DNA of 64,000 nucleotides from Cercospora beticola (lineage: Eukaryota > Ascomycota > Dothideomycetes > Mycosphaerellales > Mycosphaerellaceae): contig NC_088937.1 in the NCBI RefSeq assembly GCF_033473495.1, positions 1,550,001-1,614,000 of the forward strand, in the 5' to 3' direction. The notes below the pieces were generated by a model, which did no database searches, had not been told where the DNA came from, and was given only the letters and a program-made list of their open reading frames with translations. A program made the position numbers and the translations under genes. Within the stretch, counting starts at the first letter, position 1; each line of letters opens with the position of its first letter. Below are positions 35,160 to 64,000 of this stretch, one piece after another.

Positions 35160-37228
35160 ATGAACGCGACCGGAGACGTGCGTACGTCAGGCGAACAGGT
35201 CGCTATGGCTAATCAGACATCGAAAGACGGCGAGAAGGCGATGATTGCCACGGATCTCGAACGATTGCCATCAGAGAAAGAAGGCGAAGTCATCGACATT
35301 CAGGAAGCGGACTATTCGCCAGTCGAATACAAGAAGATCTTGAGAAAGATCGACAGGTTTCTGCTCCCTCTGATGTGGTTCTGCTATGGCATACAACAGA
35401 CCGACAAGACGTCACTTGGTACCCAAGCAATCTTTGGCCTCCGTGAGGACACTGGACTAGGTACGCTCACGGCAATGTCGCATTCAGATCGCTGTGCTTG
35501 TTACTGATACTCCTCCAGTTGGGCAACAATATTCGTGGCTGACTACTGTGTTCTACTTGACTTATTTGGTTGGCGAGTTTCCATCCAACTTCCTCTTGCA
35601 ACGATGGTCACTCGGGCGTTCGCTCTCAATATACGTGAGTAGAATGATAGGTGGAAGTTCCACCCAACTCATCACACGTGAAAAGTGACTGACGCTTACA
35701 TGTTATCGCTCTTAGATGATGTGCTGGGGTAAGACGATCGATCTCCTGCATGCAAGCGATGCTAACATTCGCAGGCGTATGTGTGACATGCATTGGAGCA
35801 GCACAGAATTGGACTCATCTAGTAAGTGAAGTCACAGGTGGGAGCCCTACCCAAGCCACCGCATGTGAGAAAGTGACTATCGCTTACGCCTATTGCTTCT
35901 AGATGGTACTGCGTGCACTACAAGGTTTCTTCGAGTGCACGATTTCACCTGGCTTTGTCTTGGTCATCGGCAGCTGGTACACCAGAGACGAGCATTCCTC
36001 CCGTTCGCTGTTCTTCCAATCGGCCAATGCAGGTTTCGGTATCATTTCGAACCTCTCAATGTACGGGATTGGCTCTCACGCTGAGAAGTACGGCGGCCTC
36101 GCCCCGTGGAGATGCATATCACTTTTCCTTGGTTCATGCACGGTGGTGTTGTCAGTCATTTGCTTTCTGATGCTGGGAAGTCCGAAAGAAGTCAAATGGC
36201 TAAGCAACGAGGAACGAAAGATTGCGTATGTGGTATCTGCACACATGTTGCACGATGCTGACCCTTTGATCTAGGCAAGCGCGAATCGTGTCGAATAAAG
36301 CCGGCAGAGATGTGACTGGAGTGCAATGGTCATGGCCACAAGTCGCAGAAGCCTTCAAAGATCCTCAGCTGTGGTTCAGTATGAGTAAGAACACATCAGA
36401 TGATCATCGTCTTGTTTTTGGCTACTAAGCTGTCCGACAGTCAACGCATTCCTCTCCTCTGTACCGAACGGAGGATTGACCACCTTTGGAAACATTGTGC
36501 TGAATAGCTTCGGTTTTACTGAGCTGCAGGTATTGCTTGTGGAGATTCCACGCTCAGGCAAGTTTACCTATGCGTTTCCTGGAAGCAACTCACTAACAAA
36601 GGAGTAGTGATCTCCGTGGTCATTTTCCTCATCGTCGGCATATACACACGCAAGGTGCCAGAGCGACGCATGTACATCATGGCAGCTTCTTGTGTGCCAC
36701 CTTTTGTCGGTCTGCTCGCAATGTCCCTACTGCCAAATACTCCTCAATATCAGTATGTCGGCCCTTTCACTGCCCAGGAGCTGTGCTTGAAGTGTTCGCT
36801 AACATATTCCCAACCATCCCAGATGGACAAAATGGGGCATGTACGTTATCACAGTCCCCTACGTCCTCGCCCTCTTCCTCGGCTGGACACTCATCCCATC
36901 CAACGTCGCCGGCCGCACCAAAAAGACCATCATATCCTCAGCAACATTCGTTGGCTACTGTGTTGGGAACATGGCCGGCAGCCAGATCTTCAAAAGCAAA
37001 GACGAACCTCGATACGTACCGGGCACAATCGGAGCTTGTGCTTGCCTGGGGTTAGAATTCGTGCTCATTTGCACCTGGCGACTGTACTATGTCTGGCAAA
37101 ATCGCAAGCGTGATAAGGCAGCCGTAGTGAGTGGCATTAGTAAAGAAGAGCAGGAGAGAATGGGTAGAGAGATGGGTGAACAGAACATGACTGATTTGCA
37201 GAATCCTCACTTCCGGTATACGACATAA
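35160..37228 (+). CDS. MFS anion:cation symporter, allantoate/nicotinate permease (Dal5/Tna1) family, nine exons
   Basis: Exons 35160-35460, 35519-35634, 35716-35728, 35775-35821, 35903-36225, 36275-36384, 36441-36557, 36608-36752, 36823-37228 (525 aa). Family marks are KIDRFLLPLMWFCYGIQQTDKTSLG, QQYSWLTTVFYLTYLVGEFPSNFLLQR, RALQGFFECTISPGF, WYTRDEHSSRS and GMYVITVPYVLALFLGW. Twelve membrane helices are expected. Members import anionic nutrients such as allantoate, nicotinate or other carboxylates; the substrate is unknown here. Introns 2 and 4 are near-copies of each other (see the repeat entries) and flank a 13-nt exon. Intron 7 (36558-36607) has a GC donor. The start is uncertain: in-frame ATGs are at 35109, 35160 and 35205. 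Confidence 0.85.
35635..35715 (+). repeat. Introner-like element copy A (intron 2 of the Dal5-type transporter)
   Basis: 81-nt intron. It aligns along its whole length with copies B and C, with one 1-base gap each way and mostly transition differences. The 5' end gtgag can pair with cttac near the 3' end, and ggtgg at intron positions 16-20 can pair with tcatc at 35-39 using G-U wobbles. Confidence 0.8.
35822..35902 (+). repeat. Introner-like element copy B (intron 4 of the Dal5-type transporter)
   Basis: 81-nt intron. By hand count about 70 of 81 positions equal copy C without gaps. It has the fullest nested pairing: gtaag with cttac, agtcac with gtgact, ggtgg with ccacc. Confidence 0.85.
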
Positions 37229-37395
37229 TAACAGAGGTCGGTTCAGCACGACTGAATAGATGAGTAGGAGTATCACATAGAGCATCAAAATCAGGAGCTG
37301 AAGAATTGGCATACGCCGAGAGTAGATTTTTGTCTCATGCTACATGACTTCGTGGCTCATTCATGCACGCAATATCATAACCATGCCGAGCAGCA

Positions 37396-39180
37396 TTACA
37401 TTTTATCGAAAACTGCCGTCCCAGTCAGTCCCTTCTTTGGGTTTCCGTGGTATCTTGCATCATCCTTATCCGTCAGCTCAGCATCGCTGAAGTCAGAGCC
37501 TTGCAGAAAAGAGCTCTTGTCCCCAGTCATACTGTGCATCATGTCAAAGCTACTTGCAGTCGAGCTCGCACTCGGGCTCGTTGATCTGCCTTCGCGCGCC
37601 TGAGGGAGAGATTCGTTAAAAGTGCCAGCAGGCAGGCCGGCCTCTTTGGACACTTCACCAATCCACAGTTGGCCACCATCTCGAGCTTTCGTCCTCGCAA
37701 CTTCTCGCTCTTCGAAAGCGAAGCGTTGTTGACCAAGACCTAGATTGCGGCGATGCCATTCGCCGATGAACATCCCATCAGGATCAGCCTCGTTGCGAAC
37801 TTTTGTCCACTGCTTGAGTCCATCGCCGAGCATGAGACTAATCTCGTCTGCGGAGGTGAAAGTGAAATTCTTGGCGTAATGTGGTTTGCCGCCCATTTCG
37901 CGCATCAACCATTCGAAGGCTTCGTAGTACCTGTCTCTGCAGGGCGGGTCTTGCAGATAGGCACGATAGAGGGTGGCGTTGAGGTAGAGAGTAGGACCAT
38001 CTTCGGCCGTGTTGTCTAGGAAGGGTCGGACGCGATCGCCGTCTTTCGTTGTGTCGCTGACTCGGACTTCAATAGGGCAGTGGACATATAAACCCTTGTT
38101 GGAGAAAGGTATCTCGTGATTGCGTTTCGGCTCCCCGTTGAGCCAAGCTGACAACCGGCTGATGGCTTCGGGGCCATCACGAAGTGGCAATGCCCATTCG
38201 TTCACAAACTGGCTGTACAAACAATTCATGAGCAGTCCAGTTTGGAGAGGCTCAACAGCAGAGGTCGTTGTGCCAGGGCTGAAACCGTACTGCATGCCAA
38301 AGACAAACCACTCCACCCAAGGGAGAATGGATGGCACATAATTCGACAACCACAGAAGGTTGTGATAGGTGTGGAAACCCACAGAGCCACCATACCAGCT
38401 TCCAGTTGCCGCACGCAGTGGTTTGTCCGTCTTTTCTGCGGACCACACGATTGCCCGCTTCATATATGGCATCCACCAGACGCGAGTGAACTCCTTCTGA
38501 GTCCAGAGAGTGTTATCCCAAGTGTTCAAAATTTCGTCCAGCGGCCGTAGCGTCTGAGTCCACTCGATATTGCAAGCATCGGTCATTTGGAACTCCACCT
38601 CGACGATGATACCCAATGCGCCCAGCGAGACCAGCGCAGCGCGGAACAGGTCGGAGTTCTCGTCCTTTGAGCACTTCACCGCTTGCCCGCTTGCGAGCAC
38701 GATGCGCAAGCTTCGAACAGAGTCGCTGAGCAAGCCATGCCACAAGCTGCTGCCATGGGTCGCCGTAGCTATCGCACCAACAATACTTTGCTCATCGATG
38801 CTGCCGAGATTGGGCATGGTCAGCCCATGCCTGTTGGCCTCCTCATTGAGTTTGCGTAAGCGGATACCGCCTTCCACGAGTAGTGTCTTGTTTGCCTTGT
38901 CCACTTTGAGCACTCTCTGATACTCGTCCAAGTTGATCATCCAGCTACTCGTGCATGTCAGGTCGCTCGGAGAGTGCCCGCAACCCACAACAACAATTCT
39001 GCGACGGCATCTGCGCGCGAGATTCACCACCTTTTGCACCTCAGCGAGACTTCGGGGTCGGATGTAGAGTTCTGGACGCGACTGAAATGTTTTCGCCCAG
39101 GTGTGGTGGACGTGCCTGTCGGTGGCGCGGAAGGGGACATCGGGGTCCGTGTGCTGGGCCTCCAGCTGGATTTTCTCCAT
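37396..39180 (-). CDS. alo1: D-arabinono-1,4-lactone oxidase (flavoprotein of the VAO family)
   Basis: Single exon, 594 aa from the ATG of MEKIQLEAQH. The FAD-binding half contains VVGCGHSPSD, with His69 at the position that carries covalent FAD in yeast Alo1. It continues NLGSIDEQSIVGAIATATHGSS and LVSLGALGIIVEVEF. The ALO domain shows RVWWMPYMKRAIVW, MNCLYSQFVNEWALP and GGKPHYAKNFTF. The enzyme oxidises D-arabinono-1,4-lactone to D-erythroascorbate, with H2O2 as by-product, normally at the outer mitochondrial membrane. About 80 C-terminal residues (Ser/Asp-rich, SPSASSTASSF) exceed yeast Alo1 and look disordered. Confidence 0.92.
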   Translation of the reverse strand: MEKIQLEAQHTDPDVPFRATDRHVHHTWAKTFQSRPELYIRPRSLAEVQKVVNLARRCRRRIVVVGCGHSPSDLTCTSSWMINLDEYQRVLKVDKANKTLLVEGGIRLRKLNEEANRHGLTMPNLGSIDEQSIVGAIATATHGSSLWHGLLSDSVRSLRIVLASGQAVKCSKDENSDLFRAALVSLGALGIIVEVEFQMTDACNIEWTQTLRPLDEILNTWDNTLWTQKEFTRVWWMPYMKRAIVWSAEKTDKPLRAATGSWYGGSVGFHTYHNLLWLSNYVPSILPWVEWFVFGMQYGFSPGTTTSAVEPLQTGLLMNCLYSQFVNEWALPLRDGPEAISRLSAWLNGEPKRNHEIPFSNKGLYVHCPIEVRVSDTTKDGDRVRPFLDNTAEDGPTLYLNATLYRAYLQDPPCRDRYYEAFEWLMREMGGKPHYAKNFTFTSADEISLMLGDGLKQWTKVRNEADPDGMFIGEWHRRNLGLGQQRFAFEEREVARTKARDGGQLWIGEVSKEAGLPAGTFNESLPQAREGRSTSPSASSTASSFDMMHSMTGDKSSFLQGSDFSDAELTDKDDARYHGNPKKGLTGTAVFDKM

Positions 39181-39761
39181 GATGAGCTGCAAGGCCGAAG
39201 GTGGGAGAGGGTGGAGTAGTGGTAACGCTGTCGGCGTCAGATTGAGCGCGCGGAAATGGGCGTGATCGGGTGTTTGCTGCAAGCTGCTGGTCACGAGCTC
39301 ATGTGACGAAGTGCTTCATCATCATCCGCAGCTGTTGCCCTCTGCCAGATGTCTCATGGCGACGACGAGCGCGAAGGTGATGGAGAGTGGGAATTGTGTA
39401 GTTCAGCACGCTAGTTGTCTGCCCATGTTGAGCCTGGCTGTTGCTCGTTGTGCAACCTGGTCGCGCGCCAATCACATGCGAGCGCGCCCGCGCCCGAGCT
39501 CGTTGACGACATCCTCGGACCAGAGGACTTCTTCTCCAAGCTCACCCTGTACACCTGATCCATTCTCGCTACATCCCGACGAGGACATGGGCAAACGACT
39601 AACAACTTTCAATACAAGCTCAATCTCTCCAGCTATGCCCGTCCGCTGATGATAAAGAAGTTCTTCAGCTCAGCAGCCCCTCACTCGTTGGAGGCATATC
39701 GCGGACTTCCCTCCGGAGCTTGTCGCGCCAAACCCGAACTGATGCTAGACGCACTGTGCAT
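39181..39761. other. Intergenic region, about 580 bp
   Basis: Promoter of the lactone oxidase gene and 3' flank of the HsbA gene. No feature recognised. Confidence 0.5.
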
Positions 39762-40313
39762 CTAGGCACTGTAGAAATCAATGCCATCCTGAATAGCGTC
39801 ATGGATCTTATCAACAACCTCCTGCCCTCTTACCAAGTCTGCAGACAAGTCTTCCTGAACAGCCGCCGAAAAAGTATCATGATCATCCAGCAGAACGACC
39901 AACGCTCCTAAGATAACCGGACTGAGACCAGCTTCGTCAAACAATGGCTTCTTGGCTTTCGTGACGTCTACACTGGCCGGTATGGAGACACCGACAGTAT
40001 CAATCACTGTCTGAACAATTGCCGTGGACTCCTCCGCAGTAAAATCTGTCTGTCGAATGTTGGCATTGGCGAAGCCCTTGCGATTCGCGAGATGAATGGC
40101 TGTGAAGTCTCCAGCGAGCGGGATTGAGTTCAACGGCTCTCCGTTGTAGGCAGAAACATGCTTGCGGAGGGATTCCACACCGTTGTGTATGTTGATGACA
40201 TCTTGTTGAATGGTTTGGGCCGTTACCAGCTCTAGGCGAGTGACGAGCGTTGCTGGTGATGCTATCGCTACGGTGGCCAGCATAAAGGGGAGCAGAGCAC
40301 GGATCGGCATCAT
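39762..40313 (-). CDS. HsbA-like hydrophobic surface-binding / cell-wall galactomannoprotein-like protein
   Basis: Single exon, 183 aa. Signal peptide of about 19 residues (MMPIRALLPFMLATVAIAS). The mature part is helical and lacks Cys: TIQQDVINIHNGVESLRKHVSAYNG near the start, and an amphipathic C-terminal part with VILGALVVLLDDHDTFSAAVQ. This is the HsbA family pattern (named after Aspergillus HsbA, which adsorbs to hydrophobic surfaces and recruits secreted esterases). It should act at the cell wall or on external hydrophobic surfaces. A TATA-like element lies about 65 bp upstream. Confidence 0.83.
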   Translation of the reverse strand: MMPIRALLPFMLATVAIASPATLVTRLELVTAQTIQQDVINIHNGVESLRKHVSAYNGEPLNSIPLAGDFTAIHLANRKGFANANIRQTDFTAEESTAIVQTVIDTVGVSIPASVDVTKAKKPLFDEAGLSPVILGALVVLLDDHDTFSAAVQEDLSADLVRGQEVVDKIHDAIQDGIDFYSA

Positions 40314-40859
40314 GGTCGCGGTTTGGCTGTCGTGAGGATGATCGATGATTTCAAGAACCTGGCTTGTTGCTACTCTTTATGCATTCTGTTCCGGCACGTG
40401 TGCTAAAAAGCATACGCCTACAGTAGCGCCGTCGATGAGATGTGAATATCTTGTGCCTCGGCTGACGATCACAACCTGATACGAACAGATCAAAGAAGCC
40501 AAGAAAGTTGCAAGCAAGCTCCCGCCAGAAAGCAGAACAGAAATCAAGGCCAATACTGCGCACTCTGCTCGGCGTATTGACTGCGCTTTGGGGCCCTGGG
40601 TCTCTGCCTTACGCAACATGACTGAAGCACCGTGTCTCGGAAAGCGAGGTAGGCGTGGAGCCCAGGTCGTGACGAGAGAGGACAAGGTGTAGATGTTTCT
40701 CAGTATCTGTTTTGCTGTCCACAGCGTGGCAGGTTCGCTGAATCTTCTCACATTGGTCTGTTCACATTGGGTTGTCTGGATTTATTTTATGCACTATCTT
40801 GCGTGCTCTTGATACCTGTCAATCCTATCGTACTGTCGAGTTCTCTGTCGATATTTAAA
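40314..40859. other. Intergenic region, about 550 bp
   Basis: HsbA promoter and 3' flank of the alpha/beta hydrolase gene. Minus-strand frames here (to 40751) show no domain. Apart from the TATA-like element, nothing is supported. Confidence 0.5.
40375..40382 (-). promoter_or_regulatory. TATA-like element of the HsbA gene
   Basis: Minus-strand GCATAAAG, about 62 bp upstream of the ATG at 40313. Spacing is plausible but the motif is imperfect. Confidence 0.35.
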
Positions 40860-42185
40860 TCACAAGCTCTTCGCAAACGCAACGATATCACGAATAGCCT
40901 TGTTGTGCACTTCCGGCAGCAGTTGTCGGAACACCAAAGAGGAAGCATGCACGATGCCCAAGTTGACCTGCGCATGGACTTCAACGCCTGCAGCGAGTAG
41001 CTTGCGGTAGTACGCCATTCCCTCGTCCCTCAACGGGTCAAGCTCGTCCATTGTCAAGATATGGGGTGGGAGACCTTTGCAGTCGTCGAGTGAGGCGTAG
41101 TATGGCCACGCGAGGGGGTTTTCTGCGTCGGCACCGCTGTAGTAGGCACCCATTCCGGCCTATAGACAAGCGATTGCGTCAGCATGTATCCCAAATATAA
41201 GGTGTGGCAGGCATTTGACTTCTTATTTGACCAGTGATCGCAAGTGCCGAATCTGCTCAATGATTTCCAATGCGGACTCACCATTTGAACGTTGTGAAGG
41301 AAATAGCCATCACACTCCACAAGCGAAGGCAGCTCTTTCGCTTTCCGGGAATGTGACCAGCCATAACCTGCAGCCAGGAAAGATTTCGGTCAGCATGTCC
41401 TTCAGTCATTTACCATGTCCGCTGATTGTTCTCTCACCATTGCTGACATATGGAACACTGCCGTAAACACCTGCAATCTTGCTAACCCAACCCTCTCGAT
41501 TCGCCTTTAAAGCCGTAGCAAGCGATAGGTTGGCGCCTCCGCTTTCGCCTTGGAGCACAATGTTACTGATCTGAAGCTCATCTCTGTGCTCAGAAATGTA
41601 TTGCACTCCCGCAGCACAGTCGTTGAGTCCGGTAGGGAATGGGCAATGCTCGCCATTATTCCAAGCATTGCGGAAATCGATCGCGATGACGACCACTCCT
41701 TGCACAGCCAAAGACTTGCACCAGCGGCGGTGCATTTTGTTCGCGGTGTTGAGAAGGACCATGCCGCCACCATGGATGTAGATTACAGCAGAGAGTTTAC
41801 CAGACTGCTCGGCAGGTCTGTAAACGAACAATTGGCGCTCGGTGCCATCGAAGCTCGGAAACTTGATGGTCTCTTGCTTGATTTCGATCTCTTGGGGATC
41901 TTCGGGCAGCTCGTTCGGCAATAATTCGTACAGCTTCTCGGACTGAGCATGGCTCTTCGCCATTTGAGCAGTGGACGATAGCTCTTCATGGCTCACGCCT
42001 GCGTATGGATCACCCTGGCTACCATCGATTCCAAAAGCACGAAACACTTCAACTATCTTGGGATGTGCTCGTGGTTCCTGGAAGAACTTCAAATTTGGAT
42101 CCCCGAGACGGCCTGGACGTACGTACCCAGCTGCAATGTCGCTGGCACTCAGCCCTTGGGAAGGTGTATTGTCGTTGGAAGTCAT
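40860..42185 (-). CDS. Alpha/beta hydrolase fold-3 (HSL-type) esterase
   Basis: Exons 41438-42185, 41282-41367, 40860-41159 on the minus strand (377 aa), introns 70 and 122 nt. The oxyanion motif HGGGM is at about 138-142 and the nucleophile Ser215 in GESGGAN. The acid is Asp319 in DELDPLRDEG, and the His is residue 349 in GIVHAS. This set defines the hormone-sensitive-lipase group of esterases. No signal peptide, so it is probably cytosolic. An alternative donor 21 nt downstream at the first intron would also keep frame. It neighbours GFA, Dabb and lactonase genes, suggesting a detoxification or small catabolic pathway (inference). Substrate unknown. Confidence 0.87.
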
Positions 42186-42935
42186 ATTGGCAAGTATTAT
42201 CGAGAATGTCGGGGCAAGACCGACACAATCGACTGTCAATGTCAATGATTTATAGAGATGCCTGTGGAGTCAGTTGTTAGCTCGCGCAGATGAAGCGAGG
42301 TCCACAGCTTCCAAGCTGCTCCGTGATCTGCATGCGATTGGATGACTCGCTGTTCGTAGCAAGCTGAGTGGTTTCAATATCCAAGCTATTGATTGCCGCC
42401 ATCTTGCAGCGATTTGCACGAGAAGCCAAGACCATACGATCACGTTTGGAAGGTAGATTACATCGAAAGACGAATTGAGGATCACGTTTGACGTCGGGTG
42501 TCGGTGAGTAAGCATGCTGACTAAGCGTTACGACCAGGTGCGACCATGCACTCATCAGCCTTGATGACGATGGCAAATAACCAGCAAAGTCATCATGAAG
42601 TCAAAACAGGACTGGCATCGAGCTATCCAATAAGGAACCCACAGCCACTTCTTATTCATACTGAAAAGATGTTATGGACCCTCGCTCGGTCATTCCAGTG
42701 GACGCGATCCAATTATGAATGCACCAGGGGCAGCAGCAATCGCAATGAGCGATTACCCGCCTGGTAGGCCGAGAGATTTCCTTTGCTTCTCGCAATGGCA
42801 CTCCACACGCCAAAGGCCTGATTTACCGCAGTGGTCTCCACTCACTGGTATAGACATGACTTGACCTGACCGGCCATAGAGCACCCTGAAATCGGCACTC
42901 TTCATTCATCCGACCAAGGCGATCAGATTCCCGAT
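42186..42935. other. Intergenic region, 750 bp
   Basis: Promoter of the hydrolase gene and 3' flank of the GFA gene. No feature recognised. Confidence 0.5.
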
Positions 42936-43619
42936 TCAAGCCTTCTTCTCCTCACCCGACAATACCGATTCATACTGCGACAACTTCGCCTCAAAATCGT
43001 TTCCAAAGCGATCGTGCTTTGTCAAGCCATCATCCTTGATGTCCCACCATGCCTTTTGACTGGTGAAGATGTGGGTACTTAGCCGCAGAGCCTCCCTCGC
43101 CGCCGGAGTCAAGGAGTCCTCGTCAACAGCTCCGAGGGCCAGGGCAGTGATATCCATCTCAATCTTGTAGCGCATTGCTAGTGGTGTATTGCAGGTCGCA
43201 CAATATGCTCGTTCTCCAACCTTGGAAAATCTTATGAAGACGATGCCACCCATGTTGTCTTTCGGAAGGCCTTCATATTGCAGAGCTTCTTTGTGATCGA
43301 AGAATTTCACGGTGCTGGCTTTAACATCGACGTAAGCCTGGTATGGGCCGCCAGAGACCTTCCTGCAGCTGTGCGAAGAATTAGAGTGTTGGTACATTGT
43401 CACTCTGTGGGCAGCCCAATGATCGATGCTAGCCAAGCAAAACTCGAAAGCAAGCATGCAGTGCTGGAAGGAGAAGACTTACGTGACGCAGTGGCAAGCG
43501 GTTATGCTGCGAGAGCTAGGAAGACCAGAGCATTGGTATGAGATTCTTGCGCAGGCGCAGCTGCCTTTGAACTGTATCCCTTCTTGAGTTTGGGCACTCG
43601 GTTTTTCTGTTTCTGCCAT
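42936..43619 (-). CDS. GFA/CENP-V-type zinc-binding domain protein
   Basis: Exons 43483-43619 and 42936-43368 (189 aa), one 114-nt intron. Zinc ligands are visible as C21 and C23 (GSCAC), C42, C44 and C47 (CHCVTC, formed across the splice), and C102 and C105 (YCATC). RKVSGGPYQAYV follows the second cluster as in the family. The domain is named for bacterial glutathione-dependent formaldehyde-activating enzyme, but most fungal members have no proven substrate. A thiol-adduct or glutathione-linked role is possible (inference). The C-terminal third (HIFTSQKAWWDIKDDGLTKHDRFGNDFE) is typical of fungal GFA proteins. Confidence 0.87.
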
Positions 43620-43847
43620 GTTTCTGTTCAACACTCCATCGATGAAGAGATTGACCTGCAGTAAGTGAAGACAATGTCTGAATGTGTTTGTCAGCAATCA
43701 GTGACCTCAGGAGGGGCTCCGACCTCGTGCCCCGCCAGGCCTTGGCTTGTAACATCTTGCATCATTCGTGATATTGCAGAAATGCTCCGGCACTTTCAGT
43801 AAAAGCCTGATCACTGAAGAGTATGAATATTCAAGTATGTAGCATAC

Positions 43848-44320
43848 TCAAAATTCCAGGTCGTATGCCAAAGTATGATCACAAATCTTTTCGCGAACGT
43901 GATGGACTGCCAGGTGTGCAGGATGCTGAGCATAAATGGCCACATCTTCTGGCTTCTCCAACGTCGACACGAGGCCAAGGTCATATCCAAGAGCACGATG
44001 AGCAGTCGAAGCTAGTGGAGGGCCGAAGTCAAATTTGACGAGTCCTGTCCATGCGACATCAGCAGTTTGTTGTTACGCAAGGATCAGAGGTCACGACTGA
44101 CCTGGTACCTGCCCAACCTGGAAAACCTAATAAGCGGTCGCGATCGAAAACTGGGTATTCCTTTAAGACTCACCATTGCTCGTCCTGCGGCTTCAAGTTC
44201 CGCGATCTGCTCCTGGGTGACACCAGGCTTCAACTTGAAGAGCACTGCGGCGATGCTGGTAAGCGGAAACATGCAATAGATCACCTCCGCTGTTTACTTA
44301 CCAATGTGGTATACCCCCAT
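43848..44320 (-). CDS. Dabb (stress-responsive dimeric alpha/beta barrel) protein with a 16-nt exon
   Basis: Exons 44302-44320, 44174-44244, 44102-44117, 43848-44044 on the minus strand (100 aa), introns 57, 56 and 57 nt. The spliced start MGVYHIVLFKLKPGVT is the canonical Dabb opening; without the small exon the block MVGQVPGLVKFDFGPPL is broken. The end AIYAQHPAHLAVHHV...LAYDLEF is also typical. The length of about 100 aa equals the family norm. Dabb proteins are dimeric ferredoxin-like barrels; relatives include polyketide cyclases and stress proteins. It is divergent from the SMP-30 lactonase gene over 560 bp, so co-regulation is possible. Confidence 0.88.
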
Positions 44321-44880
44321 GTTTGGAATGCGGTTGCCTGAGTAATCTGTCTTTCAGAAGGAACAACTGCCGAGTCGGTGAGTTGCAGTCGATAGGAGAC
44401 AAAGTGTATCGCTACAGTATATGGACATGGTCTCGGTTGAAAGATCAAGCGGCAAGCCGACATCGCTTCTTGGCCGAGCACCTCACTCCAACTGTCACCA
44501 ACCACTTGCGGAGTTTTACTCCGACACTTCGAAGTCGTCTGCCTGCCCACCGGGGTGACCGTGTGCTGCTTGATAAATTTCGCTCAAACAGGACATTGCA
44601 AGCCGGGCGCACGATTGAAGACGATGCCCTTCGGTCAAGGTCTCGAGGTGTTCATGGCCCGCGAGTGGACCTACGGTGCTGCTAGCCCCGCTCCATCTTC
44701 TAGAATGCGTCAAGGCTATGGAACCCCGCAATTCTCGAGGTCCAGGATTCATCACTGTCGCATAGGGATGTAGATGCAACTGCGTTTGACCTCGACACGA
44801 GGTCGCAAGGGACAACTCTACAAGCGCATCTGTTCACATCCTAGTCAGAGAACGACGCACAGACGAGCATTTAATAGAAG
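44321..44880. promoter_or_regulatory. Divergent promoter region between the Dabb and SMP-30 lactonase genes
   Basis: 560 bp between opposite start codons, with no supported gene inside. Frames on both strands lack domains. No specific transcription-factor site assigned. Confidence 0.45.
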
Positions 44881-54337: not shown

Positions 54338-54636
54338 CTCTGCTACCGGGGCGAGCGAAAGGGCGGGCTACTCTTGTGCATGCTGGACTACATTCCCGAG
54401 CGAGAAGGAGTGCACATTCGGCGCAGGCGTTTGCACGCGCATGATTCTCGCGCTGACACGCAGCAGCAGGCGTGCAGCATTGGCATTGGCCGGACACGCC
54501 AGCCAGCAGCCAGCTTTGGCAGTCACGGGGTCCCCACTTTGCCAAGGCGCGCACCTACGGGATTTGAGGCTGGTCCTTCTACTACTCACTGCTTCTGCCG
54601 CTGACCACTCCGTTCATCGTACAATCCGCAGCAAAG
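54338..54636. promoter_or_regulatory. Divergent promoter region between Arl3 and ribosomal protein eS25
   Basis: 299 bp between opposite ATGs. The side next to eS25 should drive strong constitutive expression. No defined element assigned. Confidence 0.5.
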
Positions 54637-55138
54637 ATGGCACCCGCAGCAACCGGAGGCAAGAAGCAAAAGAAGAAGTGGTCCAAGGGAAAGGGTGCGT
54701 GAAACTGTCCTCCCGCCCGCGACAGCGCCCCCGTCGACACCAACTGCGCCCGTCGAAGAATGCGCTTGCTAACTCGCCTCGCTGCACAGTCAAGGACAAG
54801 GCCAACCACGCCGTCATCTTCGACAAGAACACCACCGAGAAGCTCAACAAGGATGTTCAGTCGTACCGCCTCATCACCGTTGCCGTCCTCGTCGACAGAT
54901 TAAAGATCAACGGATCGCTCGCCCGTAAGGCCCTGAAGGATCTGGAGGAGCGTGGTGTTATCAAGCAGGTTGTCGGTCACAGCGCGTGCAAGATCTACAG
55001 TGAGTAGCGTCCCCGGAAACGAGACGATGGCAGAGAGATGGACACCCGACTCCCGAGATCGCTCGAGCCCGGACGATCATGACACAGCAGAACGAAGACT
55101 GACGATACACAGCACGCGAGGTCGGCGGTGGCGAGTAA
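54637..55138 (+). CDS. rps25: 40S ribosomal protein eS25
   Basis: Exons 54637-54694, 54790-54999, 55113-55138 (97 aa), introns 95 and 113 nt, longer than most in this window, as is common for ribosomal protein genes. The lysine-rich start MAPAATGGKKQKKKWSKGK leads into VKDKANHAVIFDKNTTEKL and the winged-helix part LVDRLKINGSLARKALKDLEERG. The last exon adds only REVGGGE after KIYT. Length matches eS25. It is part of the 40S head and is needed for IRES-type initiation in yeast and animals. The ORF read without splicing the last intron would end KIYSE, so the final exon rests on the conserved KIYTR ending. Confidence 0.93.
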
Positions 55139-55527
55139 GCGATTCGGAGTTGCGATGCATGCACCATCAGTCATGATGTTCTCTACGGCGCACGGAAGGG
55201 TATTTCCATATCGAGGGCAGGCACAGGAAGCGGACATGCGAAATTCTTGATCGCATCAGCTTCGGCCCAAAGAGGCCGAGCACACAGAGTGCTTTATAGC
55301 TCCGCCTAGACAGCAGCAACGAAACGAAGAAACTTGATTGCCATGACACCATGAGTTCTCTGGATATTTTGGCAGAGTCCACTAATTTTGCTGGAAAAAG
55401 ACGTCAGCAAGCACAATGGATTTTGTAACTGCGGGCCCAACCGATCAGCGGCAATCACTATTGACAACTCTGCACAGCGAATTGCCAGGCCTGGTCAATC
55501 GATTACAACGCTTCCTCCGGACTTCGA
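55139..55527. other. Intergenic region, about 390 bp, convergent gene ends
   Basis: 3' flanks of eS25 (plus) and the Rcm1 gene (minus). Nothing else seen. Confidence 0.5.
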
Positions 55528-57241
55528 CTACGACTCGTCTGCACTGAATCCTTCCCACTCATCCTCCTCGTCCTCAGCATGTTCAAGCTCCCGTGCTCCC
55601 GCCGCTGCTCGACCGAGACTGTCATGAGCCTGCTCCATGGAGCCCTCATCCCTCACAAAGCCCGCTACGAAGAAGCCCATCGTCCCATCTTCTCCGCCCT
55701 TGTCACATCGAATACACGCGTCTGCCAGTACTATCAGGTCCGTGGTCCCGTTCGAATCCACTACGCTCTGCATGGCGTCAGCCCTGCCCCTTTTGTGCCA
55801 TCGCTGCATGCCGTCGACTTGCTCTTCCCGCTTCAACACACGCCAACCTCGTGCAACAGCGATGTTGGACTGAAGTGCCTTGAGCACGACTTGTTCGTTC
55901 TCCTCGTCGTGCAGAGAGCAAGTCGAGTACGTGATCCGTCTGGCGTTTGGAAAAGACATGGCATGTTTGACAATCTTGAGCTGGAAGCCAGAGAGATTTT
56001 CCAATCGCTTCTGGAGCTTCTCCTTGTCCTGCTCGGTTTCTGGCGTCTCCTCGAGGACCGCCACTTCCTCCTCATTTTCGCTTTTGATCTCCGCCTGTTT
56101 GTTCGCCCCCCTCTTCCGCTTCTTCCCTCTTGCTGCAGAATCTTCCGCAACAGCTGAGGGCAAGTGAAGGGTTACAGTGGCTTCGTCACGCCCGAAAATT
56201 CCGCTGCCAGAACAGCTTGGATCGAGTATTAGGCCTGTGACGTTTGCAAGCTGTTGCTGCTTGGGGTCAAGCCTTGTGAAGTCCTGCTTGGCCTTTACAG
56301 TGACAATCTTTTCAGCTCCTGCCATTTTCACCATCTTCTGTAAAGTCTTGCTGCGCCCTTCATCCCGCTCACATGCGAAGACATTGTGCTTCTCCCCAAC
56401 TAGGGCAGCCACGTGCGTCGTCTTGTTGCCGGGAGCAGCACAGGCATCAATCACATCGCCTTCTTCTGAGTGCGGGCCGAGGAGGTACGCAGGAAAACAT
56501 GATGCCTTTTCCTGCAGTATGAGCTTCCCAGCGCGGTATGCCTTGAAAGTGGTCGGTTCCTCCGGGCTCGCAATAGCCACAAGATCAGGAATATGTTGAT
56601 CCACGTGAACGAGTCGACTTTCGGCAGGTGCGTGAATGATCTCCTTCAAAGTCTTGACTTCGGTGAAATTCGAGAAAGTGCCGTGTCTCAGCTCCTCGTC
56701 CAGGGTAGTCTTGAGTATATTGATGCGTACCCAACGTGGGTGTCGGGTCGCGGGTTGGCCATTTGCAGAGGGCTGGGCATCTCTAATCGCCTGCGCGTCG
56801 ATATCCTTTCTCAGATCGTCCAGTGATCCGAAGCCACGTCTCAACCGTGCTTTGGTCAGTTCTGCCGAAAGTCGAACTTTGTGTCGACTTATGGATGTGT
56901 TCAAGCCATGAGAGGCAGGAAGCGCGATGCCCTTCTTCGCTAGAAAGAGGTCGTGAACGAGAAGCAGGGCCAGAGTTGGTGTCAGCTGCGACTGAATTAG
57001 TATGCAGTATTCAGAATAGCGCACGATAGACTTCACATACATTCTTCTCGACTCCGAGCACGCCGCTCTTCTCAAGCACTTCTGACAGGACTTGGCTCCA
57101 TTTTGCAGTCTCTGTCGTCAGAGCAAAAAGCGCTTTGGGGTCGCTTTTCCATGTCTTCTTGCCGAAGACGAGCGACTTCAATGAGCCTCCTTGTTTCTGT
57201 GCGGCGGTCAGGATCTCTGCTGCTTCATGATACAGGGACAT
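55528..57241 (-). CDS. rcm1: 25S rRNA cytosine-C5 methyltransferase Rcm1 (NSUN5-like)
   Basis: Exons 57041-57241 and 55528-56991 (554 aa), one 49-nt intron. N-terminal helical part, then HPRWVRINILKTTLDEE (PUA-like/N1 region). The SAM site is DACAAPGNKTTH at about 248-259. The two NOL1/NOP2/Sun cysteines are in LDPSCSGSG (about 326) and YSTCSLHDEEN (about 423). A basic/acidic insert (KKRKRGANKQ...EEEVAVLEE) sits between them, as in other fungal Rcm1 proteins. Yeast Rcm1 methylates one cytosine of 25S rRNA (C2278), affecting ribosome stability and lifespan. Nucleolar location expected. The tail is acidic (EDEEDEWEGF). Confidence 0.92.
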
Positions 57242-57697
57242 GTTGATGGAGAGATGCACTTTTTGGACAAAATTTGAAGACTAATTTTGGGTTGGCGTAA
57301 CTACGAAAACTCGACGTTGTAAGTAGCGACCAACTCTATTAGTTTTTCCCAGGCAATCGCATCTCAAGCCATAACTCGCCGACCACTCTTCACAGTAGTA
57401 TGCAAAGGCTGTCAAAGATGTGTGGTCAGGCACGTGTGGACAGTGTCACGGAAGCCATCAAGCTTGTGACCTCGCGTCGAGACCCGAGGATTTGTTCTCG
57501 TGCCGAGCTCGGCCCAATGTCGACATGACAGCAACGAGTGAGCAACACTTCATCATGCATGAACTTTTCTAGTGCACACGGCTTGGAATTCCAGACCGCT
57601 AATCAGGCTGATCGTGCTTTCACACCATCACTGGAACCAAGCCAGAGCAGACTTGATACGACAACGAGACCACTCCGCCACTAAATAGCCAGCCGAT
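57242..57697. promoter_or_regulatory. Divergent promoter region between Rcm1 and the SurE-like gene
   Basis: 456 bp separate opposite ATGs. No gene is supported inside, and no element was assigned. Confidence 0.45.
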
Positions 57698-58810
57698 ATG
57701 CACATTCTAGTGAGTGTCGACCGGCGGGACTATCACTTCAAAGATTATCGCTAAGGTCTATGGAATAGGTGACGAATGACGATGGGCCTCCATCCACAAC
57801 TTCCTCCCCATACATCCTGCCATTCGTACAAGCTCTTGAATCAGCAGGTCACACCGTCTCCGTCATAGTACCCGACACACAGCGTTCCTGGATTGGCAAA
57901 GCACATATAGTCGGCCAAGATGTTCGTGCCACATACTACTGGCCTCCCTCACAAGTACCAGATGAACACCGCAACCCATCAACGTCTGGTGAGGACAATG
58001 GCTCCTCATCTCACGACGACGGGACATATCCCTGGGTACTAGTCAACAGCACTCCAGCAGGCTGTGCACAGCTAGGACTGAGCCAGTTCTTCAACGACAG
58101 AGGGCCTATCGATCTCGTTATTTCAGGCCCCAACTATGGCCGAAACACAACTGCCGTCTTTGCTCTTTCGTCTGGAACGCTTGGAGCAGCACTGGAAGCA
58201 TCTGTGTGTGGTTACAAAGGTGGGTTTCTCAGCTTTGAGAATTGGAATTCGGATTGAATAAAAAGCTGATTTTTCCATCTTTTCAACAGCAATCGCACTA
58301 TCATTCGCCTTCTTCGACCGCCTCAACGACCCTGTAATCGTCGCCGAATCCTGCAAACAAGGCGTGCGAGTAGCCGAATACCTCTACAAAAACGCCCCAT
58401 GGGACCCAGCTCAGCTCTATTCCGTCAACGTGCCAGTCAAGAAAGGCTGTTCTGAAGCACCAGTCCGCTGGACAAAAATGCTCCAAAACCAATGGAAACG
58501 TGGCGCTTGTTTTCAGGAACTGAATTCTGACGCCACAGTAGACGATCCAGCTTCAGAAGAGGCTAAGCTGAGGCAGCAAGAATCTAGCGGGAACGACAAC
58601 CGAGAGCCGAATGGAACTGCAACTCCACAGGATAAATGGAAGCACAGGCACTTCAAGTGGGCTCCCAGGTTCACTGATGTCTATGAAAGTGTTGAGAAGA
58701 ACGGTCCGGGTTCCGATGGGTGGGCGGTGAAAGAAGGCGAGACATCGATTACTGCTTTGAAGGCGAATTTCATGCATGCTGAGGGCTTCGAAGGTGAAGT
58801 GAAGCTGTGA
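57698..58810 (+). CDS. SurE-like 5'/3'-nucleotidase or acid phosphatase
   Basis: Exons 57698-57709, 57769-58219, 58290-58810 (327 aa), introns 59 and 70 nt. The 12-nt first exon encodes MHIL, which joins VTNDDGPPS to make the SurE start MHILVTNDDG with metal-binding Asp8 and Asp9. Other active-site parts are LVNSTPAGC and ISGPNYGRNTT. The SurE family comprises divalent-metal nucleoside monophosphatases and exopolyphosphatases; fungal members include the Yarrowia PHO2 acid phosphatase. An acidic/Gln-rich insert (about 235-265, ASEEAKLRQQESSGND) is likely a loop. No signal peptide. Confidence 0.88.
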
Positions 58811-58908
58811 TGCTGATCAGAAAGGCTGAAGTTTTTGCCTGCACTACATAAGTCATTCGACATGGGTATCATCCAAACATAGATCTCTTTCTGCTGACCA
58901 AGATGTTC

Positions 58909-61900
58909 TTACACATCTTGTTCCTGCACGTTTCCAAATCTTCTCGAGAGCATCTCATTGATCTCAGTGCTTGTTCTTGGACCATCAGCGATCATCGTAA
59001 GACCAGGCTCCGTTCCAGTTCGCTTCGGCTTGGCGAACCCTTCTTCCAGGCTGGTCTCCATCGTTCTCGGTCTGCTCAGCAACTGCTCAACCTCCATTTC
59101 CCTTCTTTCTTGTTCAGCAGCCGCCTCCTGAAGCTCCAAGCTAGTCTTCTTAGTCCCATGATTCCAGCCCTGCTGCAGCCATGGAGCACTAGCCTCTTCG
59201 AAACGCTTGCGGACTTCCAAGTCTTGTTCCAGCGTCTGGAAAGTCTCCACATCGGTAGGCATAAATGCGCATTTGACAGCTCGGATGCCGATCTCCATGA
59301 TCGACACTGCGACAACGCTAATGATCAAGGCCATCCACCACATGCCCTCCCGCCCAAAGCGTGAGAATAGCCCATCTCGGACACTGTACTTCAAGCTAGG
59401 AGCGTACACCGCGCTCAGAATAATATTCCAGAGAAACCAGCCTCCGACGGACAGGAAGACGGCAAGGAATGCCATGATGGACTTATAACGCTGCTCGATG
59501 ACCTGTAATTTGATAGCGATGATAATAACGCAAGCCGTGAAACTCATGGTGCCAAGACCAAAGACATCGTTCGACGACGAGAAAATCGCGTCTCCGTAAA
59601 GACCCCACACCGAGAAGAAGACGATCATGGCGCCGGCAACGGCAGTGAACATCCATCCCGTGAAGACCTTGATATTGAAACCTGCTGAGCGTTGTCCTTT
59701 CGTGTAGAGCTCCGGAACTGCGATGAGTGTGGATGCCCTCAGGTCTTGCTCGAATATGCCAAGAAAAATGATCGTCAGACTTGTGAAAAGCGTGTTGAAC
59801 ATGCTGAGGGACCACGATTCGTACAGACTCGTTCCGCTGTAGCCAGAGTATCTCTGGTATCTGTTGAAGGGAAGTTAGCGTGACTCTCGATCATGCCTAT
59901 TGCACCAGATGGCGAGATAGTCGGTGCGTCGACCGCCCGAGAGCGTTCGTACAAGGCGCTAGGAGGCGTGCATCACTTACAAGGCTTGCGTCAAGTAGAA
60001 AAGCATCTCTTTGTAGAAAGTGCCTGCGTCGATGTTAGTGAACACGGTCATGTAAGTGAACAATTGATGCAAAGATGGAAGGCGAGTATCTTGACTCCCG
60101 CCGTAGCGTCACGTGCAACCTGTGCCTCGTCCAGCGAAGACGGCACGGCTGTGATCGCTTTGGCGGAAATCGACCGAAGTTTTGTTTGATCGAGAGAGCA
60201 ACGCTGGCAGAACTCCTCCCCGCATATTGCGAAGAAAAGTCCGGAAATTGAAAATTCGAAAAGTTCGAGGTTGACTCACCAACAGTATACTTGCAAGTCC
60301 GGATGTAGTTCCACCTCCCATGAACGAGAAGCAATGGGACGAGGAAGCGGAACTGAGCAATACTGTAATCGGATGTGCGCGCTGCTTGTAAGCCTTCTTT
60401 TCCAGTGATGCCAATGCCTACCGAGGCCTCTCGGATCATGGCGATGTCGTTAGCACCGTCTCCAATTGCCAGTGTCACGGTCCCTTTGATACGCTGTTTG
60501 ATGGCTTTAACAAGGCCAGCCTTCTGGCTCGGTGAAGCTCGGCAGCAGATGACTGAGTCGGTCAGGATGGCGAGATCCAAGAACAGAGCGTGGAGAGCAT
60601 CATCTGATTGGATCTGGGACAATGTGCCGCCATCGATAACGACGACGGAGTGAGCGATATCGCCCCGATTGATATCAATGATGCCTGCAGCAATACTGTG
60701 CTCGACGTCGCCTGCTTCAGAGTCCAGAATTGTGACTGACGAGTAGTCCTTGATGAGTCTGCAGCTGTGGCCGATATTGATAGCAGTCTCACGCTTGTCA
60801 CCTGTGAGCATCCACATCTTAATGTTCGCCCTTCGCAGTCGATCGATCGTTTCCGGCACGCCTTGCTGTAGCTTATCTTCAATGGCGGTCGCGCCACCCA
60901 GCTCGAAGCCACACTCGATCATCTCGCCTGCCTTTTCGATGAGCTCGGTACGGTTGACAAGCGATGTGGTCGCATCATGATAGACTTTCTTCCAAGAACG
61001 ATATTCCTCTTCTGACAGAAACCGATGGCCATAGAGCAGGGTGCGCAGCCCTTCGGTGGCGAAGTCGTTGATGTGTTGCAGGCAGCGCTCGATTACCACA
61101 GCCTCATCTGTCGCTGCAGCTTCGTCGATGGCTGTGTAGTTCTCAATCTCAGATTGATGTGATCCACTTCGCTGTGCCATCGTAGGACGCGTTGTGGAAC
61201 GGCGGAAGTGTGAGCTTGCTCTGGGTGAGTCAGTAACGTCATGCTCGCGTTCATTCAGCCACCCGTCGAGGTTATCACGAATAGGACTCAGATGCCCGAT
61301 GCTTGCCCTTGCGACGCTCCGTCTCGCAAGTGAGTTGCTTGTGCGTGGGCTAGTGACGCTGCCAGCTCGCTCGGCGATGCTACTTTGCCTGCGCAGTGCT
61401 TCCTGAGCTTCCATGGATCTGCGCTGGACAGTGTGCTTCTCTATCTCTGCCAATTTCTGCTGAGCCAGGCTAGCCAAGCGCAACCTCTTCATGATGACAG
61501 AATCAGCTCCCTTGCAGAGAACCACGATCCTGCCATCTGGCATGCGGATAATGACAGAAGCCCGCTTTCTTGCGCTGCTAAATTCCACGATGTCCAGTAC
61601 CTCGTACTTCTCGAATACTGGCTGGGCATCACGACCACCGGCTGATATCTTCAGAGTCAGGATAGCGGCATCACGATCGTAAGCGAGGTAACCTAGCTCT
61701 TGTGCAGCCCGTACCAGTGCCAGCTCATCTGGCGAGGATGCCTGAAAGGTGATGTTTTCATCGTCATCATTCCCTTCACCACGCTCTGGTAGACAGGTAT
61801 GGCAAAGGGCGATGGAAAGAATGAAAAGCTTGGCTTTATTGGCAAACGCTGTGTTTGGCTGATGCTCAAGGTATCTGATGAGTTCCCGCGTATTGTGTTC

Positions 61901-64000
61901 CATGGAAGTCAGCGCCGGAACGGCTGACGAGCGCCATTGCGTTGCGGAAGAGCGGCTAGGTCGTGGTTGCGAGTCGCGACGCAGTGTACTGGGACGATTT
62001 GAGGCATGGCCAGGATCATTGAGTAGCTCTTCACTAGCTGTCGACTTGCGCGGCCTAGATCGAGACCTTGAAATCGACCTTGAAACCCTTATTGGCTTCT
62101 TTTCTTTTCCTTTTGTTCGTTTCTTGTGAAGCAGTGGCTGTGGCTGGCTTTCCGCGTTGTCGAGGTCCATGTCGTGAATGAAAGCATTGCCAGCTACGCT
62201 CATTTTGCGAAACTTCATCACATTCTCGGTCAAAGTGCCGGTTTTGTCGGAAAACACGTAACCGACCTGACCCAATTCCTCGTTTATGGTGCTGGTCCGG
62301 CTCTCAAACGGCATGTTGGTCGCTGGATCGTACATATCGACATCCGAGTTCATCAACACCATCTGTGATACTTTGATGATCTCCAAGCTGACATAAAGCG
62401 ACAGCGGAATCAGCGTGTTGAACATGATGATGAAGCTTGTCAAGAGTGGACCGAAGCTGACGGGCGCCTCTTGAATATACCATGCCTTGCTCTCCGTATT
62501 GTTCTGCCAGACTTGATAGGCGATTGAGTTAAAGAGTGACAAGAAAAGCACGAACAGGACCATCTAGAAGTAATAGGTGTAAGCGATAGTCACTGTCTTA
62601 AATGTGGTGGCTTGGGTAGGGCTTCCACCTATGGCTGTACTTACACCGATGACGATCTTGTTGACTAGTGACTGCAAATTGGGCGCCTTCACACGACTGT
62701 CCTTTGTAGCATTCATCCTTATCTTGCATTCTTCCCCGGTGTACACCACGAGTCCGATCATCGAAGGAGTATTGCGTAAGATACTCCCACGATAAATGAC
62801 CTCATTATTGGTTAGCGGCGAGGTCTTTCCACCAACTGTCAGCCGCCCTTCGAAAGCGTAGAGGTCCAGATTTGGATCTTCTGCGACAATTTCCATTTGG
62901 GATTGAGTCAATGACCCGGCATTCTTCGCAAGTTCGACGGTAGCTGGGTTGGGTTGCTTCGCCTTCAAATTGGTCTCTCCATCCAATGCCATTGTTTCCA
63001 AGTAGGCTGTGTTATTTGCGCCTTCGCTGGAGAGTACAACAAGATCAGCCGGTGCCGCATCATCACGTTCCAGCTTGATAATATCTCCCACTTGTACAGA
63101 GTGCCATTTGACTGTAGCCCAATGTGCAGGGCCCTCGATTGGTACCGAATGGTCTCCATCGTGCGTGGACTTCACATTCCCTGCGCCAACCGGCCTGTAT
63201 ACATGCAACACTTTCGCTTCAGAATTGTTCTCAGCTTTGTCAAGTCGATGTCGGCGTAGGTCCTCATAGCCCTCTTTGGCCATACTGAGGGAGACGAAAA
63301 ACAGGAGAGGCGCGATGGTGGTGTACGTTCCAGTAGTCGATAATCCTGGAATCATTTGCAGTATCGAGACACCCAAGAAGTAGGCATTGGCAAGCTTTGA
63401 GAACTGTGCAAACAGCTGTCGCGGAAGGAAATTCCAGGCATTGTATTTGGACGAGCGAATGATGTTGCCCACATACGGCTTGCCAGTACGCTCGTCTGTG
63501 AGGGCTGTCTTCCGTGATGGTTCTACTGGTATATGTCGTCCGTCCTTTGTAGGCGGTATGTCTTGAATGCGTAGAATGAACTTGTAGGTTCGGGTATATG
63601 CTGACTTCATCTTCTCGACAGGTAAATGCCTCTTGGCTTGAGTCGCTACCCACTGCTGATAGTTCGGAAGCGCCGATGCACCTCGCAGCTGCCGCGTTAG
63701 CTTGAGTGGATGCGAATCCCAAGTCTCATGAACAGGCGTTACTGTAATTGATGTTCTCTGGTCCTTCTTGAAGGGCGGCGGACGTGGACCAACACTTCCC
63801 GATTCGCTCGATGATCCAACTTCCTGGAGCTCTATGGCAGTGGGGGATCTTGTATTCATGTTTCTCATGAATAGCGAAGACCGCAGCGACATGCCTCGTG
63901 TCCGACTTCTCGGAGAGAGAATGGGCGATTCAGCACTCTCTGCTCCGTTGTTCGGCCCATGCCCTGAAGCCTGAGCCAGTCCAGTGTTGACGGACAACTG
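58909..64000 (-). CDS. P4-type ATPase (phospholipid flippase), Dnf3-like, 5' end outside the window
   Basis: Exons 62645-64000 (continuing past the right edge), 60280-62563, 59981-60023, 58909-59860 on the minus strand; 1544 residues visible, introns 81, 256 and 120 nt. Marks are YVGNIIRSSKYNAWNFLPRQLFAQFSKLANAYFL, the actuator DGETNLKAKQP, the phosphorylation site SDKTGTLTEN (about residue 557 of the visible part), MLTGDKRETAINIG and AIGDGANDIAMI. The end KEMLFYLTQALYQR...SLYESWSLSMFNTLF starts the last membrane helices. Long inserted loops with Ser/Arg stretches and the overall sequence point to the Dnf3 subgroup. Flippases move aminophospholipids to the cytosolic leaflet with a Cdc50-type partner. 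Intron 1 is introner-like copy C. The true start is not in view. Confidence 0.9.
62564..62644 (-). repeat. Introner-like element copy C (intron in the P4-ATPase gene)
   Basis: 81-nt intron read on the minus strand; about 70 of 81 positions equal copy B without gaps. gtaag/cttac and ggtgg/ccacc pairings are both present. The exon that follows begins atggtc, close to atggta after copy B. Confidence 0.85.

Follow-up and report, generated by a model that had tools for sequence, protein, structure and literature searches.

How new spliceosomal introns originate and how they come by their sites is an old open question, and it is raised by a 64,000-nucleotide stretch of the Cercospora beticola genome (hereafter the window) in which three 81-nt introns, here called A, B and C, resemble one another while lying in two unrelated genes.

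Introns A, B and C and their host genes

The coordinates reported in the first-pass annotation for A, B and C proved correct (Table 1); each intron is 81 nt long, begins with GT, ends with AG and is homologous to the other two over its full length. B and C are identical at 70 of 81 positions in an ungapped alignment, the differences being 8 transitions and 3 transversions, and A had rightly been described as more diverged, chiefly by transitions (A and B agree at 56 of 80 aligned positions, the alignment having two gap columns, and differ by 21 transitions and 3 transversions; A and C agree at 57 of 80 and differ by 18 transitions and 5 transversions). The blocks ctacccaagccacc and cttctag, which had been claimed as shared, are common to B and C but are not exact in A. 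A 33-base degenerate motif, built from A, B and C themselves, matches the window with at most 3 mismatches only at A, B and C and is absent from 100 shuffles; a blastn search of the window with A as query, which does not depend on this motif, recovered C (E 2e-7) and B (E 5e-7). A covariance model run at E up to 1 found only A, B and C in the window, in agreement with the earlier statement that its other introns lack such sequence, and a search of the window against Rfam gave no match.

The host genes were also as first described. A and B interrupt an MFS transporter gene, which we take to be of the DAL5 type, a label taken over from the first-pass annotation. The annotated C. beticola protein P0121 spans both junctions in the same way as our gene model (first 267 residues identical; 100% identity and coverage), and another C. 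beticola record, P0141, shows a joining around A that differs from that of P0121. The gene interrupted by C, proposed as a P4-ATPase, has relatives that carry the name phospholipid-transporting ATPase, in some cases DNF3.

Table 1. Features of the window, with positions counted from its first nucleotide.
Feature	Positions	Strand	Remarks
Host gene of A and B: MFS transporter, RHO25_004575, 525 aa	35160..37228	+	Extent read from sequence
ILE copy A, 81 nt intron, phase 0, MFS transporter gene	35635..35715	+	Covariance model 74.8 bits; junction matches annotated P0121
ATG behind copy A (Met codon)	35716..35718	+	Met in 112/119 homologues
ILE copy B, 81 nt intron, phase 0, same MFS transporter gene as A	35822..35902	+	Covariance model 97.0 bits; junction matches annotated P0121
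ATG behind copy B (Met codon)	35903..35905	+	Met in 56/119 homologues, 20/20 closest (one is another C. beticola record)
Host gene of C: P4-ATPase	60109..63859	-	Crude model, C-terminal part left unresolved in model
ATG behind copy C (Met codon)	62561..62563	-	Met in 41/120 homologues, 6/10 closest, 7/20 closest; Ile in 72
ILE copy C, 81 nt intron, phase 0, P4-ATPase gene	62564..62644	-	Covariance model 100 bits
3' arm, internal inverted repeat of copy C, intron positions 61-72, GCTTACACCTAT	62573..62584	-	Same repeat as 5' arm
5' arm, internal inverted repeat of copy C, intron positions 13-24, ATAGGTGGAAGC	62621..62632	-	21/60 shuffles do as well

A multi-copy intron family in the genome

The first-pass annotation had supposed that this genome carries a family of introner-like elements (ILEs), had called for a genome search and had named the absence of further copies as grounds for abandoning the idea. 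The search yielded 22 recognisable copies in 14 genes of the 36 Mb genome, 20 of them through genome-wide searches and 2 with a covariance model applied to the surroundings of copies already known. Since an introner family is defined, in the part of the source available, by at least five introns alike over their width in one genome (PMC12403724), this intron family is one of introner-like elements, that is, of short spliceosomal introns multiplying as units. More diverged relatives may be missed, because a search with A alone at E up to 1 finds only A. Two weak pattern hits (C3:839364 and C2:4288178, given as contig and position) were unconvincing as copies when their sequences were inspected, and a third (C6:2556010) has no GT and was left out.

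All 22 copies have GT-AG ends, the junctions of five worn copies having been placed manually so as to preserve the frame, and annotated proteins join as predicted (P0121 at A and B, P0003 at two junctions in a monooxygenase gene). The orientation is sense in 22 of 22, as judged for 20 copies from gene models with the introns forced in, for the copy on contig C4 from its open frame only and for one further copy from its position directly before the first in-frame ATG. Target-site duplication amounts to 0 nt in 16 copies, 1 nt in 5 and 3 nt in 1. The median copy length is 79 nt versus 59 nt in 49 control introns, which were taken from a crude gene finder with hand-set splice scores; run without forcing, this finder gave the right ends for only some of the ILE copies.

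Contig C3, which holds the window and makes up 12% of the genome, carries 16 of the 20 genome-wide hits, and five genes have two or three copies each. That the copies cluster on one contig and in few genes suggests a further role for the accessibility of the target, and genes with two ILEs each are a precedent for repeated hits in the accessible text of PMC4457414. The repeated copies, together with the distant paralogy of the two MFS transporter hosts (31% identity), would also fit a spread by duplication of genes or by conversion among paralogues, or a chance likeness, an origin to which we give hardly any credence: no two of the 13 modelled host proteins other than the MFS pair are alike, the copies in this pair are, by eye, at different places, the flanks on both sides share no sequence beyond the ATG described below, and neighbouring copies are not more alike than distant ones (mean distance 0.253 within neighbourhoods versus 0.235 overall, permutation P 0.78). 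Local hopping was rejected on these same figures. The copies had also been said to have spread fairly recently, which holds only in part, identity being 94% for the best pair and 76% for the median one; ILE families called likely active show 98-99% identity in the portion of PMC4457414 consulted.

The downstream ATG and its age

The downstream exon begins with ATG in 15 of the 22 copies, compared with 1.6% of coding positions (binomial P about 2e-22), so that a preference for ^ATG, the caret marking the insertion point, is measured. Among the 49 control introns from the crude gene finder, ATG follows only 2, one of which has a doubtful acceptor (Fisher P about 2e-8 against the 15 of 22). Thirteen of the 15 ATGs serve as in-frame Met codons or as a start codon: 14 lie inside coding sequence, 12 of them as in-frame Met codons where the ATGs of the host genes themselves would lead one to expect 6.6 (P 0.003), and in the remaining case the ATG is the first one in frame in a sodium:dicarboxylate symporter gene. 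The pattern is nearly all-or-none, with graded matches (AT, A) scarce and one ATC; 7 copies are without ATG, three of them well preserved (C3:1154206, TGC; C4:3234965, GAG; C5:297262, TCA). Across the 15 sites, the base at +4 is G in 7, which is unremarkable against 36% after Met codons, and upstream, at exon positions -8 to -1, no single base occurs in more than 7 of the 15 copies. The first-pass annotation makes no mention of an ATG at the downstream junction.

Such a bias could also be the work of selection or splicing after random insertion, if copies before ATG were spliced better or did less harm and so survived. The available part of PMC9860276 argues that badly spliced introners are selected against, and the excess of phase 0 could reflect selection as well; we nevertheless hold this explanation to be unlikely, as the rarity of ATG after control introns means that AG^ATG is no general splicing aid here, and phase 0 is found in only 3 of the 7 copies without ATG.

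Comparison with homologues bears on whether the ATG preceded the intron. At the monooxygenase site LIG^N (AAT GGT), Asn is present in 120/120 homologues; at VTA^M, Met is present in 83/120, and at AWE^M in 22/120, including 7 of the 10 closest. In a dioxygenase host, presumably PpoA-like, the Trp-His of the site Y^RWH aligns with mammalian prostaglandin synthase 2. At the six sites compared, the three in Table 1 and the three monooxygenase sites, the junction sequence is clearly older than the insertion in four cases and probably older in the remaining two; an ATG that predates the insertion hints at how new introns come by their sites. Exon spacing is unchanged at six sites, in 112/119, 117/119 and 120/120 homologues and in 120/120, 120/120 and 114/120. 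This unchanged spacing contradicts, at the six tested sites, the idea that the element brings the ATG along at its 3' end, with one codon gained per insertion, which we consider very improbable even though ATG does follow 15 of 22 copies and codon-adding introners exist in Aureococcus, according to the accessible section of PMC9860276. At sites C and AWE^M, Ile or Leu/Val stands in the majority of homologues, and an older ATG is backed by nearer relatives only, which might share the intron.

Possible routes of insertion and known systems

Insertion of intron RNA at N^ATG is favoured because the copies are sense-only, the upstream exon has no consensus and the demand lies on the downstream side only; we infer a mechanism in which copies arise through RNA. 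With moderate confidence, we read the family as ILEs inserted seamlessly by way of RNA with a preference for ^ATG, then spliced out and decaying. Intron RNA, either a lariat or a lariat plus 3' exon, would insert at N^ATG. In one concrete form of this scheme, the lariat-3'exon splicing intermediate would start at the intron's first base and extend beyond the 3' splice site to include AUG. A target strand with ...CAT at its end could then serve as primer for reverse transcription from this AUG, with synthesis proceeding as far as the intron's 5' end. Because each daughter copy would again read ...AG^ATG, the preference would perpetuate itself, and the copies, spliced out after insertion, would then decay. 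AUG-primed reverse transcription is possibly the insertion route, with direct reverse splicing at N^AUG an equally allowed version. Only tentatively do we suggest a three-base target rule, under which the family would insert upstream of AUG, preferably an in-frame Met, into or guided by RNA with the AUG being recognised, for example by AUG-primed copying of the lariat-3'exon intermediate, the rule being inherited from donor to daughter. The copies without ATG, above all the well-preserved ones, count against RNA insertion at ^ATG. Microhomology priming predicts graded matches, and against it count the nearly all-or-none data and the lack of any match beyond ATG.

Several copies carry an imperfect inverted repeat just inside the splice sites. 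Three of the 22 copies are more self-complementary than every one of 60 mononucleotide shuffles, and each of the other 19 is equalled by 3 to 59 of 60; fold z-scores lie between -0.8 and -2.9 in the 8 copies folded. Pair-covariation tests gave no support to either stem of a conserved RNA fold, and a fold kept by compensatory change was rejected. Both this result and the resemblance of the repeat to a DNA element count against RNA insertion at ^ATG. The copies could instead be non-autonomous DNA elements, MITE-like, in part palindromic and equipped with both splice sites, that are moved by a transposase or recombinase preferring ATG and leaving no duplication, a reading that we regard as possible but rather doubtful: the repeat ATAGGTGGAAGC...GCTTACACCTAT in several copies, the three that beat all shuffles and an Acanthoeca family with TIRs yet no TSD (PMC9860276, in the part seen) speak for it, whereas the remaining 19 copies stay within the range of their shuffles, there is no TSD, all copies are in sense orientation with none of those found intergenic, and the target preference is one-sided.

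A strong one-sided three-base target offers a handle on mechanism and predicts where future insertions fall. It also helps to tell RNA-primed insertion, which we prefer, from DNA-transposition models, and it could be tested in reporters with the ATG present or absent. ILEs of Dothideomycetes were reportedly described by van der Burgt et al. in 2012, whose statements on sites reached us via citing papers, and in the introner literature searched we found no description of a ^ATG preference or of a concentration on one contig.

The following comparisons hold for the available portions of the papers cited. ILEs occur in the Dothideomycetes Fulvia fulva, Dothistroma septosporum and Zymoseptoria tritici and relatives (Collemare et al., 2015; PMC4457414), and the C. 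beticola family resembles them as a set of short, similar introns in unrelated genes, in sense orientation, seamless, with multiple hits per gene, longer than ordinary introns and, in several copies, with a possible inverted-repeat symmetry. It differs from them in numbering 22 copies (diverged ones may be missed) rather than the hundreds in the species first described and in being concentrated on one contig, and it is older than the most active families. Like DNA-transposon-derived introners of algae and other organisms, many of whose copies act as introns and some of whose families have inverted repeats, these copies probably act as introns, but many of those introners have TSDs and a co-opted splice site (PMC9860276), whereas the C. 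beticola copies bring both splice sites with them and lack a TSD. Fungal ILEs are described as having seemingly random exonic sites (PMC8469720), in contrast to the strong ^ATG preference in C. beticola. The sister stwintrons of Hypoxylaceae are likewise sequence-similar, seamless and without TSD, and their internal symmetry and new positions may have a parallel here (PMC8469720, PMC12403724), although the copies described here are not twin introns. Sister stwintrons are reported to show neither a nucleotide bias in the bordering exons (PMC8469720, PMC12403724) nor a phase bias (PMC8469720), whereas in C. beticola ATG follows most copies and in-frame Met codons dominate.

Copies of the intron family and their host genes

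The first-pass annotation had claimed that two introns of one MFS transporter gene (A and B) and an intron of a P4-ATPase gene (C) are each 81 nt long and alignable end to end, with B and C matching at about 70 of 81 positions and A more diverged, mainly by transitions. This description was borne out, as B and C share 70/81 positions and A is identical to B at 56 and to C at 57 of 80 aligned positions, its differences being mostly transitions. As a blastn query against the window, A retrieved C (E 2e-7) and B (5e-7), and a 33-base motif derived from A, B and C matched only these places in the window (shuffles 0/100). The proposal of a multi-copy family in the genome also held, with 22 copies in 14 genes. 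DNA and pattern searches of the whole genome (36.07 Mb, 10 contigs) yielded 20 copies, and a covariance model, trained on 12 copies and run on 158,608 bases (the window plus sequence flanking known copies), yielded two more, both adjoining known copies. GT-AG ends are present in 22/22 copies, the junctions of five worn copies having been set by hand to preserve frame. All 22 copies lie in sense orientation, as judged from gene models with forced introns (20 copies), from an open reading frame only (one) or from a position ahead of the first in-frame ATG (one).

Positions of individual intron copies (A to C in window coordinates; C1 and C3, genome contigs, C3 being NC_088937.1, with the window at C3:1550001-1614000; L, genome stretches around copies in local coordinates)
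Copy	Host gene	Position	Contig position	Strand	Length and ends
A	MFS transporter	35635-35715			81 nt, GT...AG
B	MFS transporter	35822-35902			81 nt, GT...AG
C	P4-ATPase	62564-62644		minus	81 nt, GT...AG
Symporter, three copies	sodium:dicarboxylate symporter	L020:9443-9517, L020:9617-9680, L021:1531-1611	C3:3271442-3273610
Thioredoxin copy	thioredoxin-transglutaminase-like	L016:2759-2820	C3:1632758-1632819
Dioxygenase copy	PpoA-like dioxygenase	L018:2845-2917	C1:1696844-1696916
Worn copy, split Met codon		L017:3914-3971	C3:1938913-1938970

Several genes carry more than one copy, namely two MFS transporters (2 and 3 copies), a flavin monooxygenase (3), a sugar transporter (2) and the symporter (3). 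Single copies occur in the P4-ATPase, Na/H exchanger, SDR, protein kinase and thioredoxin-transglutaminase-like genes, in a dioxygenase gene that we take to be PpoA-like, and in genes for two low-complexity proteins and one unassigned protein. The two MFS transporters, at 31% identity, form the only similar pair among the 13 host proteins modelled. The symporter gene is spread over two stretches, and each half of the gene corresponds to one of the two parts of Pfam SDF; one of its copies lies immediately 5' of the presumed start codon and two lie near the 3' end. The thioredoxin copy splits the WCGPC motif; in this protein the thioredoxin domain is joined to a transglutaminase-like one. The triplet downstream of the copy, GTG, is one base off ATG.

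An ATG at the downstream exon and its age

The downstream exon opens with ATG in 15/22 copies, compared with 1.6% of coding positions in the gene models of this genome and 2/49 control introns from a crude gene finder; the remaining seven triplets are ATC, GTG, GTA, GAA, GAG, TCA and TGC. Comparison of the upstream exon ends across copies revealed no consensus. Twelve of the 14 ATG sites within coding sequence are Met codons, compared with the 6.6 that the ATGs of these genes would predict (P 0.003; P 3.5e-4 against all gene models), and the 15th is the first in-frame ATG of the symporter, presumably its start codon. In one worn copy the intron splits a Met codon between AT and G, such that ATG spans the junction rather than lying behind it, possibly through a slid splice site.

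Fungal introner-like elements as such are known, including genes hit twice (PMC4457414), and a large survey describes them as free of target-site duplications and terminal inverted repeats (PMC9860276). Whereas PMC8469720 places such insertions in seemingly random exonic sequence, and PMC12403724 describes exons bordering stwintrons as without bias, the family here favors ATG. We found no report of an ATG-directed intron family, or of introner-like elements in C. beticola, in searches of an open-licence library.

Homologues indicate how old the ATG is relative to the intron (^ marks the insertion point). Met is present in 112/119 homologues at site A, in 56/119 at site B, including the closest 20 (one being another C. 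beticola record), and in 83/120 at the monooxygenase site VTA^M, while the monooxygenase site with ATG across AAT-GGT has Asn in 120/120 (one being C. beticola's own record). By this comparison, the sequence at these four sites is clearly older than the intron. At site C, Met occurs in 41/120 homologues, among them 6 of the closest 10, with Ile in 72; AWE^M, also in the monooxygenase, shows Met in 22/120, among them 7 of the 10 closest, and Leu in 65. At both sites the ATG probably, though not provably, predates insertion, since Met is found mainly in nearer relatives that may share the intron. At all six compared sites, nearly every homologue has the same exon spacing. The copy in the PpoA-like gene interrupts Tyr^Arg-Trp-His (a Y-x-W-H motif), and the Trp-His of this motif lines up with mammalian prostaglandin synthase 2. 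Thus, at least at these sites, seven of the 22, the element does not supply the ATG. Separately, in a predicted Cercospora zeina monooxygenase (P0002) the C-terminus parts from related proteins precisely at VTA^M, which hints that the C. zeina gene may have an intron there too.

Intron anatomy and splicing

Copies have a median length of 79 nt versus 59 nt for control introns. Just inward of the splice sites, ATAGGTGGAAGC and GCTTACACCTAT form an imperfect inverted repeat. Self-complementarity exceeded that of all 60 shuffles in 3/22 copies and was equalled by 3 to 59 shuffles in the remainder, and fold energies of the eight copies folded were slightly better than those of shuffles (z -0.8 to -2.9). 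Pairing of the 5' splice site with a CGCTTAC stretch, which we read as resembling a branch site, is also possible in some copies. Compensatory changes were no more frequent than in the control for either stem. Visual inspection shows that even worn copies preserve the 3' half around GTGAGACAGTGACTATCGCTTACACC, whereas the 5' half is lost or altered in six copies and the last bases in three. The annotated protein of the gene hosting A and B (P0121, RHO25_004575) crosses both junctions as modelled, and P0003 likewise matches the prediction at two junctions of the monooxygenase. Around A, P0141, a further C. beticola record, is joined differently.

Route of insertion and genomic distribution

The ATG preference is a measurement; from the sense-only copies, the lack of target-site duplications and a requirement that is solely downstream, we infer that insertion probably proceeded through RNA. 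Intron RNA, or a lariat-3' exon intermediate, would insert at N^ATG and then be reverse transcribed, and a version with priming at AUG would account for inheritance of the triplet. The nearly all-or-none pattern and the seven exceptions argue against simple microhomology. A DNA element whose target is constrained on one side only is possible given the inverted repeat in the copies.

Contig C3 makes up 11.8% of the assembly and holds 16/20 genome-wide copies (binomial P about 4e-12), or 8/12 places after copies <=10 kb apart are merged (P about 1e-5); the two covariance-model copies are also on C3, having been detected only through examination of their surroundings. Copies close to one another are of different ages and resemble each other no more than widely separated copies do, which points to favored genes or regions rather than local hopping. 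The copies at C1:1696844 and C3:3268411 are 96% alike over 47 nt despite lying on separate contigs, and thus resemble a donor-daughter or sister pair.
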